Source of the DNA: Geothrix fuzhouensis
Lineage (GTDB): Bacteria; Acidobacteriota; Holophagae; Holophagales; Holophagaceae
Assembly: GCF_024609325.1 (NCBI RefSeq)
Contig: NZ_JANHMQ010000001.1
Coordinates: 806,001-870,000 of the forward strand
Length of the DNA stretch: 64,000 nt
Direction of reading: 5' to 3'
Part shown: positions 18,741-27,731 of the stretch, one piece after another
Layout: each line of letters opens with the position of its first letter
Position numbering within the stretch: position 1 is the stretch's first letter
Notes under the pieces: generated by a model
The model's input: the letters and a program-made list of their open reading frames with translations, nothing else
Told to the model about the DNA's origin: nothing
Database searches by the model: none
Position numbers and translations under genes: made by a program

Positions 18741-19723
18741 GGCTGCTCCTTGGCAGAGGCCCGCCACAGGCGGTCACGGACCGCCAGCCAAGCCTCGTTT
18801 TCTGGAGGGCGTTCCATGAAGATGCGCTCGAAACCCGCGTCATCCAGTTCGTGCAGGAGGGCGTAGAGTCTCGCCGCCACCGCGTCTGCATCCATGGGCA
18901 AGAGGATCCCGCGGACGGTCTCGGGCAGGTCGGGAAGCGAGCCGAGGCCCACGTACGCCACCAACCCGGAGACCTCCATCAAGCCGGCTCCTGGCGCCAC
19001 CAGTTCCAGTCTCGCCCGGGGCGCGTAGTGGCGCTCGGCCATCCCCGGCGCGGCCTGCACCTCTCCGGCCTTCACGGCCCCCTCCCACAGATCCACAGGT
19101 CCCACCAAGACCGCCAGTTCCGCAGGCCCGATGGGACCGGGGCGGAGGATCCGGGGCCGGCCCCCGGTCAGGTCGAGGATGGTGGATTCCAGGCCCGCCG
19201 CAGTGGGCCCGGCGTCCAGGATCAGGTCCACCGCGTCGCCGAGGCTGGAAGCCACGTGCTGGGCCAGCGTGGGCGACAGGTGCTGACTGCGGTTGGCGCT
19301 GGGCGCGGCCAGCGGGCGGCCAGTGGCGCGGATCAGGGCGAGGGCCACGGGGTGGGCGGGACAGCGCAGCGCCACAGTGGACCCACCCGCACGAACAATG
19401 GAAGGAACCAAGTTCGAAGCGGGGAGGACCAGGGTCAGTGGGCCCGGCCAGAAGCGTTCCGCCAGGCCCTGAGCCTCCGCGGACCAGCTCGATACGAGCT
19501 CCCGCGCGGCGGCGGCATCGGCGACATGGAGGATCACGGGATTCGTCGCCGGCCGTCCCTTGGCCGCATAGATCCGGGCCACGGCCTCTGGGTTCAGACC
19601 ATCGGCGCCCAGGCCATACACCGTCTCCGTGGGGAAGGCCACCAAGCCACCCATGGCGAGGACCGCCGCAGCTTCGAGAATGGCCGGGTCGTCCGGTCCC
19701 GTGACGTGAAGGAGGCGCGTCAC
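18737..19723 (-). CDS. sua5: L-threonylcarbamoyladenylate synthase (long Sua5 form)
   Basis: Makes threonylcarbamoyl-AMP from threonine, bicarbonate and ATP, the first step of the tRNA t6A37 modification. The YrdC core (residues 1-205) shows VAFPTETVYGLG (~28), KGRPATNPVILHV (~55), STVALRCPAHP and PLAAPSANRSQ. The extra C-terminal ~110 residues form the small Sua5 domain joined by a linker around APGMAERHYAPRA, a signature of the long form. It is wedged between murE and murF with ATGA overlaps at both ends, an unusual place for a tRNA-modification gene. Confidence 0.95.
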   Translation of the reverse strand: MTRLLHVTGPDDPAILEAAAVLAMGGLVAFPTETVYGLGADGLNPEAVARIYAAKGRPATNPVILHVADAAAARELVSSWSAEAQGLAERFWPGPLTLVLPASNLVPSIVRAGGSTVALRCPAHPVALALIRATGRPLAAPSANRSQHLSPTLAQHVASSLGDAVDLILDAGPTAAGLESTILDLTGGRPRILRPGPIGPAELAVLVGPVDLWEGAVKAGEVQAAPGMAERHYAPRARLELVAPGAGLMEVSGLVAYVGLGSLPDLPETVRGILLPMDADAVAARLYALLHELDDAGFERIFMERPPENEAWLAVRDRLWRASAKEQP

Positions 19724-21177
19724 TTGGTTCCCCCGAGCACCGCTTCCACCGCCGAGCGGTCGCTGTAGGGATACTTCACCCCATGGATCTCCTGGTAGGG
19801 TTCGTGCCCCTTCCCCGCCAGCAGCAACAGGTCGCCGGGGCGGCAGTCCGCCAGGGCCAGGCGAACCGTTTCACGGCGGTCCGCGTTGCGATGGTAGCGG
19901 CTCTGGTCGGCGCGAACCGCAGCGGGAATCCCCGGCGCGGCGTCTTCGAGAATGCGTTCGGGATCTTCCGTTCGAGGATTGTCGCTGGTGTGCCAGAGCA
20001 CGTCCGCGCCCGCAGCCACGGCGGCCGCCATGAGGGGGCGCTTGGCACGGTCACGGTCGCCCCCGCAGCCGAAGAGCACATGCAGGCGGCCGCCCGGCGG
20101 CAGCAGACGCCGGCCCTCGGTCAATAGTTTCTCCAGCGCGTCCGGTGTGTGGGCGTAGTCCACCATCACACCGAAGGGCTGGCCGCAGTCGATGCGCTCC
20201 AGGCGGCCGGGCGCGCCGCTCACCAAGGGTACAGCTGGCACCAGCCGGTCCAAGTCGAAGCCCGCCTCGGCACAGGCCGCCAGGGCCGCAAGCAGGTTGT
20301 ACACATTGAAGCGCCCCAGCAACGGACTGCGAACCTCCCACGTCCCCTTGTCCGTGGCCAGGGCGAACCGCGTTCCCGTCGGCCCCAAGTCCAGATCCTG
20401 GGCACGGTAGCGGGCGGGACGATCCACCGCGTAGTCGGCGTGGCCTTCTCGCCCCAGCAGGCGCCGACCCCAAGGGTCATCGGCGTTCACAAGGAAGCGG
20501 TCGCACTGGGCGACGAGCAGGCGCTTGGCGTCGAAATAGGCCTCCAGCGTGCCGTGGTAGTCCAGGTGGTCCTGGGTGAGGTTCGTGAAGACCCCCACCT
20601 GGAAGCGAGCGCCATGCACCCGGCCCAGGCAGAGGGCATGGCTGCTCACCTCCACCGCCGACGCCGAATCGTGTGCCGCCACGCTGCGGTGCAACCAGCG
20701 GTAGAAGGTCGGACTTTCCGGTGTCGTGCGGACGGCTTCCTCCTCCAGATCACCGGCGGCGTTCAGCACGGTACCCACCAGGCCACAGCCGATACCAGCG
20801 CCCCGCAGGAGCTGGCGGATGAGCGTGGTGGTGGTGGTCTTGCCGTTGGTGCCGGTGACGCCGATGAGGGCCAGGTGCTCGTCTGGCGCCCCGTGGAGGC
20901 GACGGGCCAGCTCGGCCATCTGCAGTCGAGGATCTCCGGTGAAGGCGCAGACCGCGATCTCCGCGGGCGCCGCCAGGCTGGATTCCGCGATCACGGCGTT
21001 GGCACCCTGGGCCAAGGCCTGTGGCACGAACGCTGCGCCATCAGCCTTCTCGCCTTTCAAGGCCAGGAAGGCCCAGCCGGGGCAGATTTCGCGGCTATCG
21101 CTGCTGAGGTCCGCCACTTCGGCGTCCGGACCGGAGCACCGCAGGGCGATTCCATCGATGAGCGCGTCCAGCTTCAT
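19720..21177 (-). CDS. murE: UDP-N-acetylmuramoyl-L-alanyl-D-glutamate:meso-diaminopimelate ligase
   Basis: The cytoplasmic enzyme adds the third stem-peptide residue. The ATP loop GVTGTNGKTTTTT lies at ~106-118, and DNPR at ~398 is the motif specific for meso-diaminopimelate rather than lysine. This predicts a Gram-negative-type A1-gamma peptidoglycan. HSHALCLGRV and TNLTQDHLDYHG are further family landmarks. At 485 aa it is full length. Its start overlaps the ftsI stop and its stop overlaps the sua5 start, both as ATGA, so the whole stretch is a tightly coupled operon. Confidence 0.97.
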   Translation of the reverse strand: MKLDALIDGIALRCSGPDAEVADLSSDSREICPGWAFLALKGEKADGAAFVPQALAQGANAVIAESSLAAPAEIAVCAFTGDPRLQMAELARRLHGAPDEHLALIGVTGTNGKTTTTTLIRQLLRGAGIGCGLVGTVLNAAGDLEEEAVRTTPESPTFYRWLHRSVAAHDSASAVEVSSHALCLGRVHGARFQVGVFTNLTQDHLDYHGTLEAYFDAKRLLVAQCDRFLVNADDPWGRRLLGREGHADYAVDRPARYRAQDLDLGPTGTRFALATDKGTWEVRSPLLGRFNVYNLLAALAACAEAGFDLDRLVPAVPLVSGAPGRLERIDCGQPFGVMVDYAHTPDALEKLLTEGRRLLPPGGRLHVLFGCGGDRDRAKRPLMAAAVAAGADVLWHTSDNPRTEDPERILEDAAPGIPAAVRADQSRYHRNADRRETVRLALADCRPGDLLLLAGKGHEPYQEIHGVKYPYSDRSAVEAVLGGTK

Positions 21178-23345
21178 GGCATCCCCGCCTTGATCTTCAC
21201 GACCGTCCCCACCTCCAGTGGCGCCCCCGGCTCGGGGCTCTGCCCGATCACGTGGGCAGCCGAGGAGCCGGGAGTGGCCTCCACTTTGGGAGTCCCACCC
21301 ACCAGCACCACCCGATGGATGGCGGCCTTGAGGCTGAGGCCCTGCAGGTCGGGTACCCGGCCGCGCTCCACATGCAGGGCCGCTTCGTCGGTCTCGCTCA
21401 CCGGCCAGTCGCGCAGGGACAGCTTCAAATCCGCTTCCCGGTCCGCATCGTTCGCGGTCTGCCGGAACCGCAGGATGCCGTCGCCGATGCGCTTGAACAG
21501 GGGCGCTGCCACGTCACCGCCGGTGGTGTCCCCAGCGGGATCGTCCAGCATCACGAGGACTCCGAACTGGGGTTTGTCCGCCGGGAAAAAGCCCATGAAG
21601 GAGGCGTAGTGACGTTTCGGGTCGTATTGCCCGTCGATGAGCTTGCGGCTGGTGCCGGTCTTGCCGAAGGCCTCCACGCCGTTGTCCAGTTTGGCCCGCT
21701 TGCCGGTGCCCTGGGTGATCACGCCCTTTAGGGTTTCCTTCATGAGATTGGCCGTTTCTTCACTGATGACCTGGCCCCGCACAGTAGGCTTGAATTCCTT
21801 CAGCAGCAGACCTTTGTCGTTGTAGATGCGCTGGACGAGGATCGGCTGCATGAGCTTGCCGCCATTGGCCAGGGCGCAGCCGGCCATGAGGATCTGGAGG
21901 GGCGTGGTGCTCAGCCCGTAGCCGTACGACATCGTGTACTGGGTGGGCACGCTCCAGCGGTCCGGCGCGATCAGGCGGCCGGAGCTCTCGCCAGGAAAGT
22001 TCAGTCCCGTGGCGTCCCCGAATCCAAACTTCCGCAGGTACTGATAGTGCACCGCTGGGTCGAGGCGAATGCCGATCTTGGCGGCGCCGATGTTGGAGCT
22101 CTGCCAGAGCACCTCTTCGAAGGTAAGCAGGCCATGACGGTGGGTGTCCGTGATGGGCGGAATCTTGGGGCTGTACAGCCAGCGGCCCGACATGCAGTCG
22201 ATGCGCTCGCCCAGGTGGACCTTGCGTTCCTCCAGAGCCATGGCCGCCGTGAAGATCTTCATGGTGGAACCGGGTTCGTAAACATCCTCCACCGGATGTA
22301 CCTTGCGGGCAGCCTTCTGGCGCTCCATCTCGCGGTGCAGTTCCTCACGCTCGGCGGAGGAAAGCTCGGATTCAGCACGGTTCCGGAATTTCTTGGGCAG
22401 GATGTGGTTCGGATCGAAGGTGGGCGTGCCGGCCATGGCAAGGATCTCACCGGTCCGGGGATCCACCACCACCGCATACGCCGTGCGTGGATGGGACAGG
22501 CGCACGCCTTCTTCCAGGGCATCCTCCACGATGTGCTGGATGGAGGCATCCAGGCTGAGCTGGAGCGAGGCCCCGTTCACCGGGACCTTGCTGTAGTTCT
22601 CCTGGAGGATGAGCAGCTTGCCGTGGGCATCCTTCGGAGCGATCAACTCGCCCTTCACGCCCACCAGCTGCTTGTCATAGGTCTGCTCGATGCCCAGCTG
22701 GCCCAGGCCGTCGATGTTGGTGAAGCCGATGATCTGGGCCGCAAGGCTGCCCCGGGGATAGAAGCGGCGGCTCTCGGGCTGGAACTCAATGCCGTCCAGG
22801 TTCAGCGCCCGCACAGCGGCGGTCTTGATGGGCGGCAGGTGCCGCTCCAGGTAGACAAAAGTCTTCTTGCGGAGAAGCTTCTCCAGCACCTGGGCCCGGG
22901 TCTGCTCCAGGATGGGCGCGAGTTTTACGGCCACCGCTGCGGCGGACTTGCGGTCCGGCTCGCCCCATTGGCGGTCCTCGCCCTTCCCCGGTTTGTAGTC
23001 CGGGTAGAACATGCGGGGATCCGCGAAGAGGCTCTCGACCTTGATGGAAATGGCCAGAGGCTCGCCACGCCTGTCCAGCAACTCGCCGCGAATGGGCGGA
23101 ATGGGGACGATCGTGGTGTGTTGCTGCTCGGCCCTCGCCTGATATCTCTTGTGCTCCACCCCTTGCAGCCAGAGCAGCCGCAACAGGATGAGCAGGGCCC
23201 AGAAGGCCATGCTCCCCATGATCCAGGGCAGGCGCTGGCTCAACAAATCCTGGGGATCCTGCCGGCCCAGCAGGCGGCGGGAAACGCGGGGCTCGGTGGT
23301 GAAACGGAGGGACACAGGACGGCCGGGGCTAAAGGAAGCGGTCAC
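21174..23345 (-). CDS. ftsI: Division-specific penicillin-binding protein with PASTA domain (FtsI/Spo VD type)
   Basis: A 723-aa class B transpeptidase for septal peptidoglycan. A single N-terminal membrane span lies near residues 45-62, followed by a dimerisation domain. The transpeptidase domain shows the acylation serine in EPGSTMKIF (~360), QSSNIGAAK (SxN, ~416) and FGKTGTSRK (KTG, ~560). Residues ~660-723 form one PASTA domain (VPDLQGLSLKAA, IGQSPEPGAPL, GTVVKIKAG). The PASTA module is normal in Gram-positive SpoVD/PBP2x and in acidobacterial homologues but absent from E. coli FtsI. It starts with GTG and lies between ftsL and murE. Confidence 0.96.
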   Translation of the reverse strand: MTASFSPGRPVSLRFTTEPRVSRRLLGRQDPQDLLSQRLPWIMGSMAFWALLILLRLLWLQGVEHKRYQARAEQQHTTIVPIPPIRGELLDRRGEPLAISIKVESLFADPRMFYPDYKPGKGEDRQWGEPDRKSAAAVAVKLAPILEQTRAQVLEKLLRKKTFVYLERHLPPIKTAAVRALNLDGIEFQPESRRFYPRGSLAAQIIGFTNIDGLGQLGIEQTYDKQLVGVKGELIAPKDAHGKLLILQENYSKVPVNGASLQLSLDASIQHIVEDALEEGVRLSHPRTAYAVVVDPRTGEILAMAGTPTFDPNHILPKKFRNRAESELSSAEREELHREMERQKAARKVHPVEDVYEPGSTMKIFTAAMALEERKVHLGERIDCMSGRWLYSPKIPPITDTHRHGLLTFEEVLWQSSNIGAAKIGIRLDPAVHYQYLRKFGFGDATGLNFPGESSGRLIAPDRWSVPTQYTMSYGYGLSTTPLQILMAGCALANGGKLMQPILVQRIYNDKGLLLKEFKPTVRGQVISEETANLMKETLKGVITQGTGKRAKLDNGVEAFGKTGTSRKLIDGQYDPKRHYASFMGFFPADKPQFGVLVMLDDPAGDTTGGDVAAPLFKRIGDGILRFRQTANDADREADLKLSLRDWPVSETDEAALHVERGRVPDLQGLSLKAAIHRVVLVGGTPKVEATPGSSAAHVIGQSPEPGAPLEVGTVVKIKAGMP

Positions 23346-23752: not shown

Positions 23753-24718
23753 TCAGGAGAGACGCTCCGCCACGCGGAGGCGGGCGGAACGCGATGGGGG
23801 ATTTGCGGCGGCCTCGGCCTCGCTGGGGGCGAGACCACCGGGATGAACGAGCTTGAGGATCTTGGGGAGTTCGACGGGGGCCGTCCGGCCCGGCCCGTCG
23901 TAGATGCCCGCGAGGCGGCGCAGAGTCTGTTTGACGATGCGATCCTCCAGGCTGTGGAAGCTGATGACAGCCAGACGCCCGCCGGGACGAAGCTGGGAGA
24001 TGGCGGATTCCAGGGCGGCGGTCAGGCGGTCCAACTCGCCGTTCACGGCGATGCGAATGGCCTGGAAGGTGCGGGTGGCCGGATCACTTTGGCCCTTGCG
24101 CTTGGCGGGTTCCCGGGGGATCACGGAGTAGACGGCCTGGGCCAGGTCCTTGGTGGTGGCCAGCCGGCCTTCGCGGTGCGCCCGGAGGATGGCGCGGGCG
24201 ATGGGCCGGCTGGCACGCTCTTCGCCGTACTGGTAGATCGCGTCGGCCAGGCTTTCATCGGTCTGTTCCGCGATCCATTCCAGGGCAGTGGGGCCGGAAG
24301 AGGTATCCATCCGCATATCGAGGGGGCCTTCGTCCCGGAAGCTGAAGCCGCGCTCCGGGGTCCGGAGCTGCAAGGTGGAGACACCCAGGTCCGCGAGAAT
24401 GGCGTCGAAACCGCCCGGGGCGAATTCGGTCTTCCAGGCCTGGTATTGGGGATCGTTCCAGATGTCCTCGTAATTCCCGCCCAGGATCTCCAGGCGGCTG
24501 TCGTCGCCCAGGCGGCGGCGGGCCTGATAGCGGGCCTCAGGATCGCGATCCACTCCCAGGTAGCGGGAGGCCTCGTCGCAACGGGCCAGCAGGGCCTCCG
24601 CATGGCCGCCCATCCCCAAGGTGAGATCAAGAACCCGGGCAGCCGGAGGCAGCACGAGGTTATCCAGCACCTCCTGAAGGAGGACCGGAACGTGGCGAGG
24701 GGGCTGCAGGGCCATCAT
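23753..24718 (-). CDS. rsmH: 16S rRNA (cytosine(1402)-N4)-methyltransferase
   Basis: The 321-aa SAM-dependent enzyme (old name MraW) methylates N4 of C1402 in 16S rRNA. Visible landmarks are HVPVLLQEVLDNL at the start, the SAM loop LDLTLGMGGHAEALL (~30), ADLGVSTLQL (~108) and the C-terminal LAVISFHSLEDRIVKQTLRR. Its ATG uses the last base of the mraZ stop codon (TGATG). The mraZ-rsmH pairing at the head of the dcw cluster is the classic arrangement. Confidence 0.97.
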   Translation of the reverse strand: MMALQPPRHVPVLLQEVLDNLVLPPAARVLDLTLGMGGHAEALLARCDEASRYLGVDRDPEARYQARRRLGDDSRLEILGGNYEDIWNDPQYQAWKTEFAPGGFDAILADLGVSTLQLRTPERGFSFRDEGPLDMRMDTSSGPTALEWIAEQTDESLADAIYQYGEERASRPIARAILRAHREGRLATTKDLAQAVYSVIPREPAKRKGQSDPATRTFQAIRIAVNGELDRLTAALESAISQLRPGGRLAVISFHSLEDRIVKQTLRRLAGIYDGPGRTAPVELPKILKLVHPGGLAPSEAEAAANPPSRSARLRVAERLS

Positions 24719-25209
24719 CAGATTCCCAGTTCCGCGAGCTGGGCCAAGTCATCGGCACCCAGGGGCTCAGCCGCGAGGCGACGCTCGAAGCCGGCCTTGT
24801 TCCACAGGGCCAGGTGATCCATCTGCCCCAGGACCGCCACCTCGCCGGTGAGCTGGGCGGCCTCGCGCAGGATCGGCGGGATGACGAATCGGCCCTGCGC
24901 GTCCGGTTCCACTTCGCTGCCGAAGTAGGCGGTGGTCTCCAGGAATTTTCGCTTGGCGGGGCTGGTGGATGGCAGGGCGGCCAGACGAGCTTCGATGGCC
25001 TCCCAGACCGGCAGGGGGTAAAGGCGTGCCGAACGACCATCCAAAGAGGTCAGGTAGTGCCGCAGGGCGCCGGAACCTTCACGCAGAGCCTGGACCCCCT
25101 CGCCCTGGGCGAAGGTTTCCAGCTCAGCCTTGAAGGAAGAGGGGAGCTTCAGGCGTCCCTTCTCATCCACCGTGGCCGGTGAGTTTCCGCGCAATCGCAG
25201 CACCGACAT
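24718..25209 (-). CDS. mraZ: Transcriptional regulator MraZ
   Basis: A 163-aa member of the AbrB/SpoVT double-repeat family. The first repeat begins RLRGNSPATVDEKGRLKLPSSF and the second has VEPDAQGRFVIPPILRE, each with the family's D-x-[KQ]-G-R core. MraZ forms ring oligomers that bind direct repeats before its own gene and repress the dcw operon. Five matching repeats lie 47-91 bases upstream, strongly suggesting autoregulation. The ATG is preceded by GAAAGG. Confidence 0.97.
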   Translation of the reverse strand: MSVLRLRGNSPATVDEKGRLKLPSSFKAELETFAQGEGVQALREGSGALRHYLTSLDGRSARLYPLPVWEAIEARLAALPSTSPAKRKFLETTAYFGSEVEPDAQGRFVIPPILREAAQLTGEVAVLGQMDHLALWNKAGFERRLAAEPLGADDLAQLAELGI

Positions 25210-25255
25210 CGCCTTTCAACCAGCGGCTCAGGAAAGACCGGAAGATCGAGTGAGA

Positions 25256-25300
25256 CCACTTTGATCCACTTCAATCCACTTTTCTCCACTGAATTCCACT
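25256..25300 (-). promoter_or_regulatory. MraZ operator: five AGTGG repeats at 10-bp spacing
   Basis: On the minus strand AGTGG recurs five times at exactly 10-bp steps (plus-strand CCACT at 25256, 25266, 25276, 25286 and 25296); four of the copies extend to AGTGGA. Known MraZ sites are three or so TGGGN or AAAGTGG-type direct repeats, one per helical turn, so this is an enlarged version. A possible promoter just upstream is TTGTGG (25327-25332) and TAGACT (25305-25310) with a 16-bp spacer. This would place the repeats over the start of transcription. Confidence 0.85.
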
Positions 25301-25333
25301 CCCAAGTCTAGAAACCTCCGGCCAGCCCACAAG

Positions 25334-25471
25334 CCAAAATAAAAGCGAAAAAGACACGCATCTTGCCAGTTCTCATTGAGAATGGCGAAATTCTTGACCA
25401 CATGTCCTGGTTCTCTCCCGTACGGCCAGGGTTCTCACGGAAGGTCTCGGTCCTTTTTCGCTTTTTTTTGG
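25334..25471. repeat. 138-bp element bounded by 22-bp inverted repeats
   Basis: CCAAAATAAAAGCGAAAAAG at 25334-25353 is repeated inverted at 25450-25471 with one inserted base on each side. Weaker complementarity continues about 10 bases inward. The ~94-bp centre has smaller GAGAA/TTCTC dyads. It lies in the 327-bp gap between mraZ and the gene at 25538 and has no convincing gene. It could be a miniature inverted-repeat element or a long terminator-like hairpin. Confidence 0.5.
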
Positions 25472-26315: not shown

Positions 26316-27434
26316 TCAGAAGGAGGCCGTCAGGCTTGCCCCAAATCCCATGTCTGCTGTGTTCTCGTTGTGGGTAATGTTATTGAGATACCGAAATGTG
26401 AAAACGACATCCTTCTTAATCTGCCAGTGGAATCCCAGATCGTGCTGAAGGCTGGGTCGATCCAACTTCTGATAGGGTTGCTTCGGGAGAAAACCACTCT
26501 GAAGATAAAGTTGAAGGAAGGGCCGAACTTTATGCCATCGGCGGTACTCCCAGGTGCTGTGGGCCCCCCAGGCGTCACGGAGGCTCCCAAAAGCCATGGT
26601 GTTATATGCCGCAGAACCACCGGGGCGCCGGATGAATCCGAGTCCTCCATAGAAGACGTGATGCGTGTTTGGCTGCCATCTTCCCGTGAGTCCAAGAGAA
26701 TGATCCCAGCCGGAGCGATAGATATCATAGGTCGTGGTCATGGGCGGTTTGAGTGACATATAAGCGGAGAGTCTCCACGTCGGGCCACTCGAAAGCTCAT
26801 GGGTCAGACCGATGGTCGGATCCTGCGTTTTCCCGCGGATGGGCTGATCGCTGTAGAAGACCAGGTGTCCATTGGTCATCACCATGAGCGTGATCTGATC
26901 CTTCTTCACCCGGTCTCGGCCAAACTGCTCGAACCCCAGGTTATGGAATGCTTCAATGACCCCATCTAGGTACCCGCCACCTTGGCTTTGAAATGGGAGT
27001 TCGGCCCACACATCCGTTTTATCCGTAAGTCCGAATCGCACTCGAAGTGATGTCCGGGCTATCTCCTCGTCGAAGAAAAACATGAGGGGTATCGAGGAGT
27101 ACTCCGCAGCATGCGCGAGCACGAATTCTCGGGTAATCGCAAGCCGCCCTTGAGCATCACGCGGCGCTTGGTCCTTCAAAATGTCCGAGAATTCAAACGT
27201 GTTCGCCTGCATGTGATCCAGGGATACCCGCCAGCGTCCCTGACCTACGGGAGTGGGATCCACCGGTTGGTAGACCATCGGCATGAGGTAAAGCGGGAAC
27301 ATTTCTCTCGTTGGGAAGGGGCCCATTTCCATCGGCTCCTGGCCGATCAGAGGCAGCATGCCTCCCAGCATCAAGGCCAGACTGATGCCATGGGCTTTCC
27401 TCCATCTGCCCGACAACTTCTTCCGCGAACGCAT
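26316..27434 (-). CDS. DUF3187-like outer-membrane beta-barrel protein
   Basis: From the ATG at 27434 the product is 372 aa with a signal peptide (positively charged start, then ISLALMLGGMLPLIG). The mature part is strand-rich with many aromatic residues (WRVSLDHMQ, YSSIPLMFFFDEEIARTSLRVRFG, SAYMSLKPP, HHVFYGGLGFI) and ends with a C-terminal phenylalanine (GASLTASF). Together these fit an outer-membrane barrel of the DUF3187 type. Function is unknown. The frame stays open for 99 further codons upstream, but that part encodes a GGDEF fragment and is treated separately. Confidence 0.75.
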   Translation of the reverse strand: MRSRKKLSGRWRKAHGISLALMLGGMLPLIGQEPMEMGPFPTREMFPLYLMPMVYQPVDPTPVGQGRWRVSLDHMQANTFEFSDILKDQAPRDAQGRLAITREFVLAHAAEYSSIPLMFFFDEEIARTSLRVRFGLTDKTDVWAELPFQSQGGGYLDGVIEAFHNLGFEQFGRDRVKKDQITLMVMTNGHLVFYSDQPIRGKTQDPTIGLTHELSSGPTWRLSAYMSLKPPMTTTYDIYRSGWDHSLGLTGRWQPNTHHVFYGGLGFIRRPGGSAAYNTMAFGSLRDAWGAHSTWEYRRWHKVRPFLQLYLQSGFLPKQPYQKLDRPSLQHDLGFHWQIKKDVVFTFRYLNNITHNENTADMGFGASLTASF

Positions 27435-27731
27435 AAGTACCGTGGTAATTGAAGGCGTCAAACCGCACATATCTGAGGCGCGAAGTTCGTGGCGGAGCGC
27501 GTCAGAAGTAAGGCGCATCACTTGGTTCCCAGTCGCATGTCCAAAGGTGTCGTTGATCCGTTTGAAATGATCAAGGTCCACCTTCAGGACGCAAAGGGGA
27601 TGGCCGCATCGGATGGCGAGACGGAGAGGATCAGCGATAATCTCAGGCTGAGTTGCTCGTACTCCCTGAACCGGAATTCTGTGAACGTGGCCAGGAAACG
27701 TGGGAGGGTGTGAGGAAGCCTGTTGTTCCAT
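27435..27731 (-). pseudogene. GGDEF-domain remnant fused in frame to the next gene
   Basis: Codons before the DUF3187-like gene spell the core of a diguanylate cyclase: AIRCGHPLCVLKVDLDHFK, then RINDTFGHATGNQV and LRHELRASDM. The D-x-D-H-F-K and N-D-x-x-G-H elements are intact. The preceding D-x-L-T-x-x-x-N-R region and the GG[DE]EF active loop are missing. Immediately after RASD the neighbouring frame reads RYVRFDAF then AFAEEVVGQMEE, which looks like a decayed, frameshifted continuation. No cyclase activity can be expected. Confidence 0.7.

Follow-up and report, generated by a model that had tools for sequence, protein, structure and literature searches.

The dcw cluster of Geothrix fuzhouensis is headed by five AGTGG words, spaced exactly 10 bp apart, between positions 25256 and 25300 on the minus strand of a 64,000-nucleotide stretch of the genome that was analysed as a whole (the window). 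Read from 25300 to 25256, the minus strand is AGTGG-AATTC-AGTGG-AGAAA-AGTGG-ATTGA-AGTGG-ATCAA-AGTGG, and mraZ follows 46-52 bp downstream. The AGTGG-type word is the known binding site of the repressor MraZ. Table 1 presents the features of the locus. In the direction of transcription, mraZ is succeeded by rsmH, by an ORF of 122 amino acids that occupies the usual place of ftsL and has no Pfam match, by the gene for an ftsI-type penicillin-binding protein and by one for a Mur ligase. Beyond these lie Sua5, another Mur ligase, mraY and murD, in that order. The genes from mraZ to murD form the dcw cluster, which is presumably transcribed as one unit. Upstream of the dcw promoter region, an ORF on the minus strand (26316-27731) shows a DUF3187 match together with a partial GGDEF match.

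Table 1. Features of the mraZ locus in window coordinates, with the evidence for each (family, Holophagaceae)
Feature	Position	Strand	Evidence
T-rich element (TTTCGNTTTTATTT-like) that precedes the -35-like hexamer	25335..25350	-	family conservation
Putative -35-like hexamer TTGTGG (family: TTGTTG or TTGTGG)	25327..25332	-	16 nt before the -10-like hexamer
Putative -10-like hexamer TAGACT (family: TAGACT, TACACT or TAAACT)	25305..25310	-	conservation
MraZ box 1, AGTGG	25296..25300	-	GTGG in 75/75 Holophagaceae; 4 nt after the -10-like hexamer
MraZ box 2, AGTGG	25286..25290	-	TGG in 72/75 Holophagaceae
MraZ box 3, AGTGG	25276..25280	-	TGG in 74/75, AGTGG in 49/75 Holophagaceae; most degenerate box of the family
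MraZ box 4, AGTGG	25266..25270	-	TGG in 74/75, AGTGG in 57/75 Holophagaceae
MraZ box 5, AGTGG	25256..25260	-	TGG in 75/75, AGTGG in 57/75 Holophagaceae
mraZ	24718..25203	-	PF02381, E 3.7e-18; ORF called as 24718-25209
rsmH/mraW, first gene after mraZ	23753..24718	-	PF01795, E 4.5e-90
ftsI-type penicillin-binding protein, dcw cluster	21174..23345	-	PF00905 and PF03717
Mur ligase (murE position), dcw cluster	19720..21177	-	PF08245 and PF02875

The ATG at 25209, from which the mraZ ORF was called, is not kept in an alignment of the Holophagaceae. Two codons after it stands a GTG (TTG in some relatives), 8 nt past a conserved GAAAGG (25198-25215, minus strand), and this GTG at 25203 is probably the start codon of mraZ, giving a product of 161 amino acids. 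As expected of MraZ, the protein combines the PF02381 domain with two half-repeats bearing D...GR motifs. In an alignment of 38 sequences, made up of 37 of the 43 usable loci and the sequence from the window, D15, R19, G106 and R107 are invariant and D103 is nearly so. An AlphaFold model of the monomer (mean pLDDT 89.8) has the MraZ fold and matches five MraZ entries from M. pneumoniae and M. genitalium with Z scores of 17.0-18.7 over 137-141 residues. Residues 33-50 (25060-25113, minus strand) constitute an insertion of roughly 17-20 residues that is absent from the MraZ of other phyla, shorter in part of the family, and modelled at low confidence. Elsewhere in the phylum, two genomes (G111 and G145) contain paired MraZ-like ORFs that lie close together (L097 and L098).

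The two-box pattern AGTGGN5AGTGG is found four times in the 64-kb window, every time within the array, where 0.14 matches are expected by chance; none of 100 shuffles reached four. These matches, together with the PF02381 assignment of the downstream ORF, bear out the earlier note, which had described five AGTGG units at exact 10-bp spacing preceding mraZ. An MraZ operator is recognised by direct repeats built on a GTGG or GTG core, by a 10-bp period, and by a place directly before mraZ, where the dcw cluster begins; the array displays each of these marks. Such operators are expected to have three repeats, or four in some species, and the five repeats found here exceed the minimum of three.

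Transcription of the cluster probably begins beneath the boxes. A strict sigma-70 scan found no promoter in this stretch of the window, and therefore the assignment of promoter elements rests on conservation. Of the 74 family arrays that were scored, 62 have a -10-like hexamer 4-5 nt ahead of box 1. Since the hexamer stands only 4 nt from the boxes in Geothrix fuzhouensis, the start site is probably under the array. Further upstream, the T-rich element TTTCGNTTTTATTT is strongly conserved across the Holophagaceae and possibly represents an UP element.

To place the array in the family, mraZ was located in 75 of 77 Holophagaceae genomes and all 75 upstream regions were used; the two genomes lacking MraZ and two short partial matches with no MraZ ORF (L076 and L077) were left out. 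In 70 of the 75 genomes every one of the five registers reads TGG, and in the other five genomes four registers do. All five boxes are GTGG in 34 members and AGTGG in 26. Boxes 3 and 4 have the least conserved second base and commonly read AATGG, or else ATTGG or TTTGG, so not all five boxes need be strong sites. At the same time, the last two G of each box, the outermost boxes 1 and 5 included, are invariant in the 74 distinct family sequences. Across these 74 sequences the box columns carry a mean of 1.68 bits of information versus 0.87 for the spacers and about 0.1-0.2 for the middle of the promoter spacer, values that favor the box columns to some degree, as the register of the alignment was picked to maximise TGG, a bias addressed by the shuffle and period controls. 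On the strength of this difference, the boxes appear to be conserved well beyond shared ancestry.

The same controls rule out a chance origin of the array. Among 3,000 shuffles of the family upstream regions, there were no runs of five boxes and about one run of four. At periods of 6-9 and 11-15, not one family sequence had a run of four, in contrast to the runs of five seen at period 10 in 70 of 75. On the other strand, no group of genomes had a run of five, and runs of at least three were confined to 6 of 20 Pseudomonadota and 1 of 87 genomes from other classes of the phylum.

Box number in other bacteria was counted as the longest in-phase run of TGG within about 250 nt upstream of the best MraZ ORF at each locus. 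By this measure, shuffled sequences gave runs of three or more at a rate of 0.3-0.6% and runs of two at 8-15%, and for that reason runs of two are weak evidence. In other families of the class (13 genomes), seven genomes have a run of two and six a run of three. In other classes of the phylum (87 genomes), the mode is three (47 genomes), with four boxes in eight genomes, five in one, and two or fewer in 31. Outside the phylum, three sets of 31 genomes each were examined, and their centre genomes were excluded from the counts because they had been chosen for having five boxes. The mode is again three in Actinomycetota (18 of 29, with four boxes in three genomes, five in one, and two or fewer in seven) and in Bacillota (22 of 29, with four boxes in five genomes, two in two, and five in none). 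The 19 Pseudomonadota divide into six genomes with three boxes, six with four, and seven with two or fewer, and none has five. Uncounted in these three sets were one genome with no match, one that matched but yielded no locus, and eleven with no match; likewise left out were 2 of 61 class genomes and 8 of 119 phylum genomes without a match, 11 more genomes outside the class, and a second MraZ-like gene of one genome (L196 of G179).

Runs of at least five boxes are thus found in 70 of 75 Holophagaceae versus 1 of 100 genomes from the rest of the phylum (Fisher p about 1e-41, with ancestry ignored). Five boxes are a fixed trait of the Holophagaceae. The earlier note had looked to other Holophagae for the constancy of the repeat number, and the answer is divided: five is kept within the family, but the 13 genomes from other families of the class have only runs of two or three. 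Its statement that MraZ sites usually contain about three repeats agrees with the mode of three in the rest of the phylum, Actinomycetota and Bacillota, with the three or four boxes of Pseudomonadota, with the three of E. coli, and with published sites of three and four. The idea that five boxes are a peculiarity of the Geothrix fuzhouensis genome is not supported, as the number is family-wide and five or more boxes also precede mraZ in scattered other lineages.

A search of species genomes by the pattern of five in-phase GTGG words alone returned at least 119 stretches. Among the 119 listed, 44 have the start of an MraZ ORF 41-149 nt downstream and 75 have no MraZ ORF. The 44 with mraZ comprise five from Holophagaceae/Geothrix, 22 from Actinomycetota (15 of them Nocardioides or Nocardioidaceae), ten from Bacillota, three from Pseudomonadota, and one each from Eremiobacterota, Anaerolineales, Verrucomicrobia and Pirellulales. 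The five-box form therefore recurs in scattered lineages of at least seven other phyla; it is uncommon but recurrent among bacteria. Longer arrays also exist. Six boxes precede mraZ at two Nocardioides loci (L200 and L225), and an Acidimicrobiaceae MAG (L197) has a run of seven TGG, six of which are GTGG.

We consider it very probable that the array is an MraZ operator that serves autoregulation of the dcw cluster, in an enlarged form with five boxes instead of the usual three. From known MraZ systems we infer binding by MraZ, the geometry of its ring and the resulting repression, and by the same analogy MraZ is predicted to use all five boxes. Adjacent subunits of the ring would each read one of the AGTGG words, which follow each other every 10 bp along one face of the DNA, and the strict 10-bp step is proposed to exist because neighbouring subunits read neighbouring boxes. 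Since the -10-like hexamer is so close to box 1, MraZ on its boxes would occupy the transcription start along with roughly the first 40 bases and thereby block RNA polymerase. The outcome would be less transcription of mraZ, rsmH, ftsI and the mur genes. During the evolution of the Holophagaceae, the common three-box form would have been enlarged to five boxes, all of which would have been kept under selection. That five boxes confer tighter or graded control, as the earlier note suggested, is a fair hypothesis, if a speculative one.

An MraZ operator does not oblige the ring to engage every box. The ring may hold three or four boxes at a time, with the fifth offering alternative registers or a higher local occupancy, in which case the number five would have no separate regulatory meaning. 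This arrangement fits with the solved complex whose title speaks of a 4 box promoter, with the mode of three boxes elsewhere, and with boxes 3 and 4 being the most degenerate in the Holophagaceae. The invariance of the last two bases of every box in the 74 distinct sequences, at the ends of the array as well as within it, speaks against it, as a dispensable end box should decay. On balance, we take a ring of three or four boxes to be a serious possibility, although not the outcome that we would expect.

A second question is whether the binder is MraZ or another transcription factor. Among 47 genomes from the genus, 39 contain the exact three-box pattern AGTGGN5AGTGGN5AGTGG, and in 38 of those 39 all listed matches lie just upstream of mraZ; the lone exception (G037:C157) is a local simple repeat. 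While MraZ as the binder of this array is a prediction by analogy and to that extent leaves room for another factor, the word and its 10-bp spacing match both published MraZ sites and the region upstream of mraZ in E. coli, and in the genus the array adjoins mraZ and practically nothing else. Another factor in the place of MraZ is accordingly judged very improbable. A wider MraZ regulon was also considered. In the Geothrix fuzhouensis genome, RGTGG three-box sites with at most one mismatch number nine, of which three are the array, as compared with ten for a reversed control pattern, and only one place away from mraZ was found in the 47 genus genomes; a wider regulon is not supported. To judge from the three-box word in these 47 genomes, the target looks to be the dcw cluster alone.

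Lastly, that the repeats act in the RNA of the 5' leader, as an attenuator, a protein-binding RNA or a riboswitch rather than as a DNA operator, is hardly credible: the array is probably within the transcribed leader and the leader of the window folds somewhat better than its shuffles (z -2.16), but the single fold, an Rfam scan without matches at E up to 1, and a consensus fold of 24 of the 75 family leaders, which yielded no structure at all, give no support to such a role, and exact 10-bp phasing beside mraZ across phyla fits a DNA-binding ring.

Returning to the MraZ operator, a more specific proposal is that the five boxes are held jointly by a single MraZ assembly that exceeds the four-box Mycoplasma complex in size or differs from it in curvature, or else by two side-by-side rings. 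Box number could then be a dial by which evolution adjusts dcw autoregulation; it would have reached five on the stem of the family and, independently, among Nocardioides-like, clostridial and other lineages. We offer this proposal tentatively and think it rather unlikely as a whole. The mechanism itself is already known, and the five-box form departs from this familiar switch in a real but modest way. Nonetheless, a box number that differs between lineages, with five as the fixed value of one family, provides natural material on how many subunits of the MraZ ring engage DNA at once. The same natural variation makes it possible to ask whether extra boxes tune the repression of division genes.

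A five-box MraZ operator is not described in the accessible portions of PMC8475190, PMC5138195, PMC5089854, PMC5282649 and PMC7761207, a set that lies apart from most of the subscription literature, and no five-box MraZ-DNA complex appears among the structure matches listed. Several known systems are nevertheless close to that of Geothrix. In E. coli K-12 (NC_000913.3), GTGG words at 10-bp steps likewise stand just upstream of mraZ (AGTGG, TGTGG, AGTGG); three boxes are intact there and the fourth register reads AGGGG, whereas all five are intact in the window. In Burkholderia cenocepacia, where binding of MraZ to its site was demonstrated by gel shift according to the available text of PMC7761207, the repeats also have a GTG core and a 10-nt period. 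They are located downstream of the -10 element and over the start site, a placement that in Geothrix is predicted from the promoter-like elements, and they number four in a different phylum as opposed to five. For the Mollicutes, the consulted part of PMC5282649 gives the core MraZ site as (AAAGTGKN3)3 and accepts AAAGTGT as well; these AAAGTG direct repeats share the 10-bp period of the Geothrix array, and the published core has three of them compared with five in Geothrix. At the structural level, the chains of the M. genitalium MraZ-DNA cryoEM entries 9r4j and 9sz7 match the Geothrix MraZ model with Z scores of 17.0 and 17.8. The latter is, by its title, a 4 box promoter complex, while the Geothrix array has five boxes.
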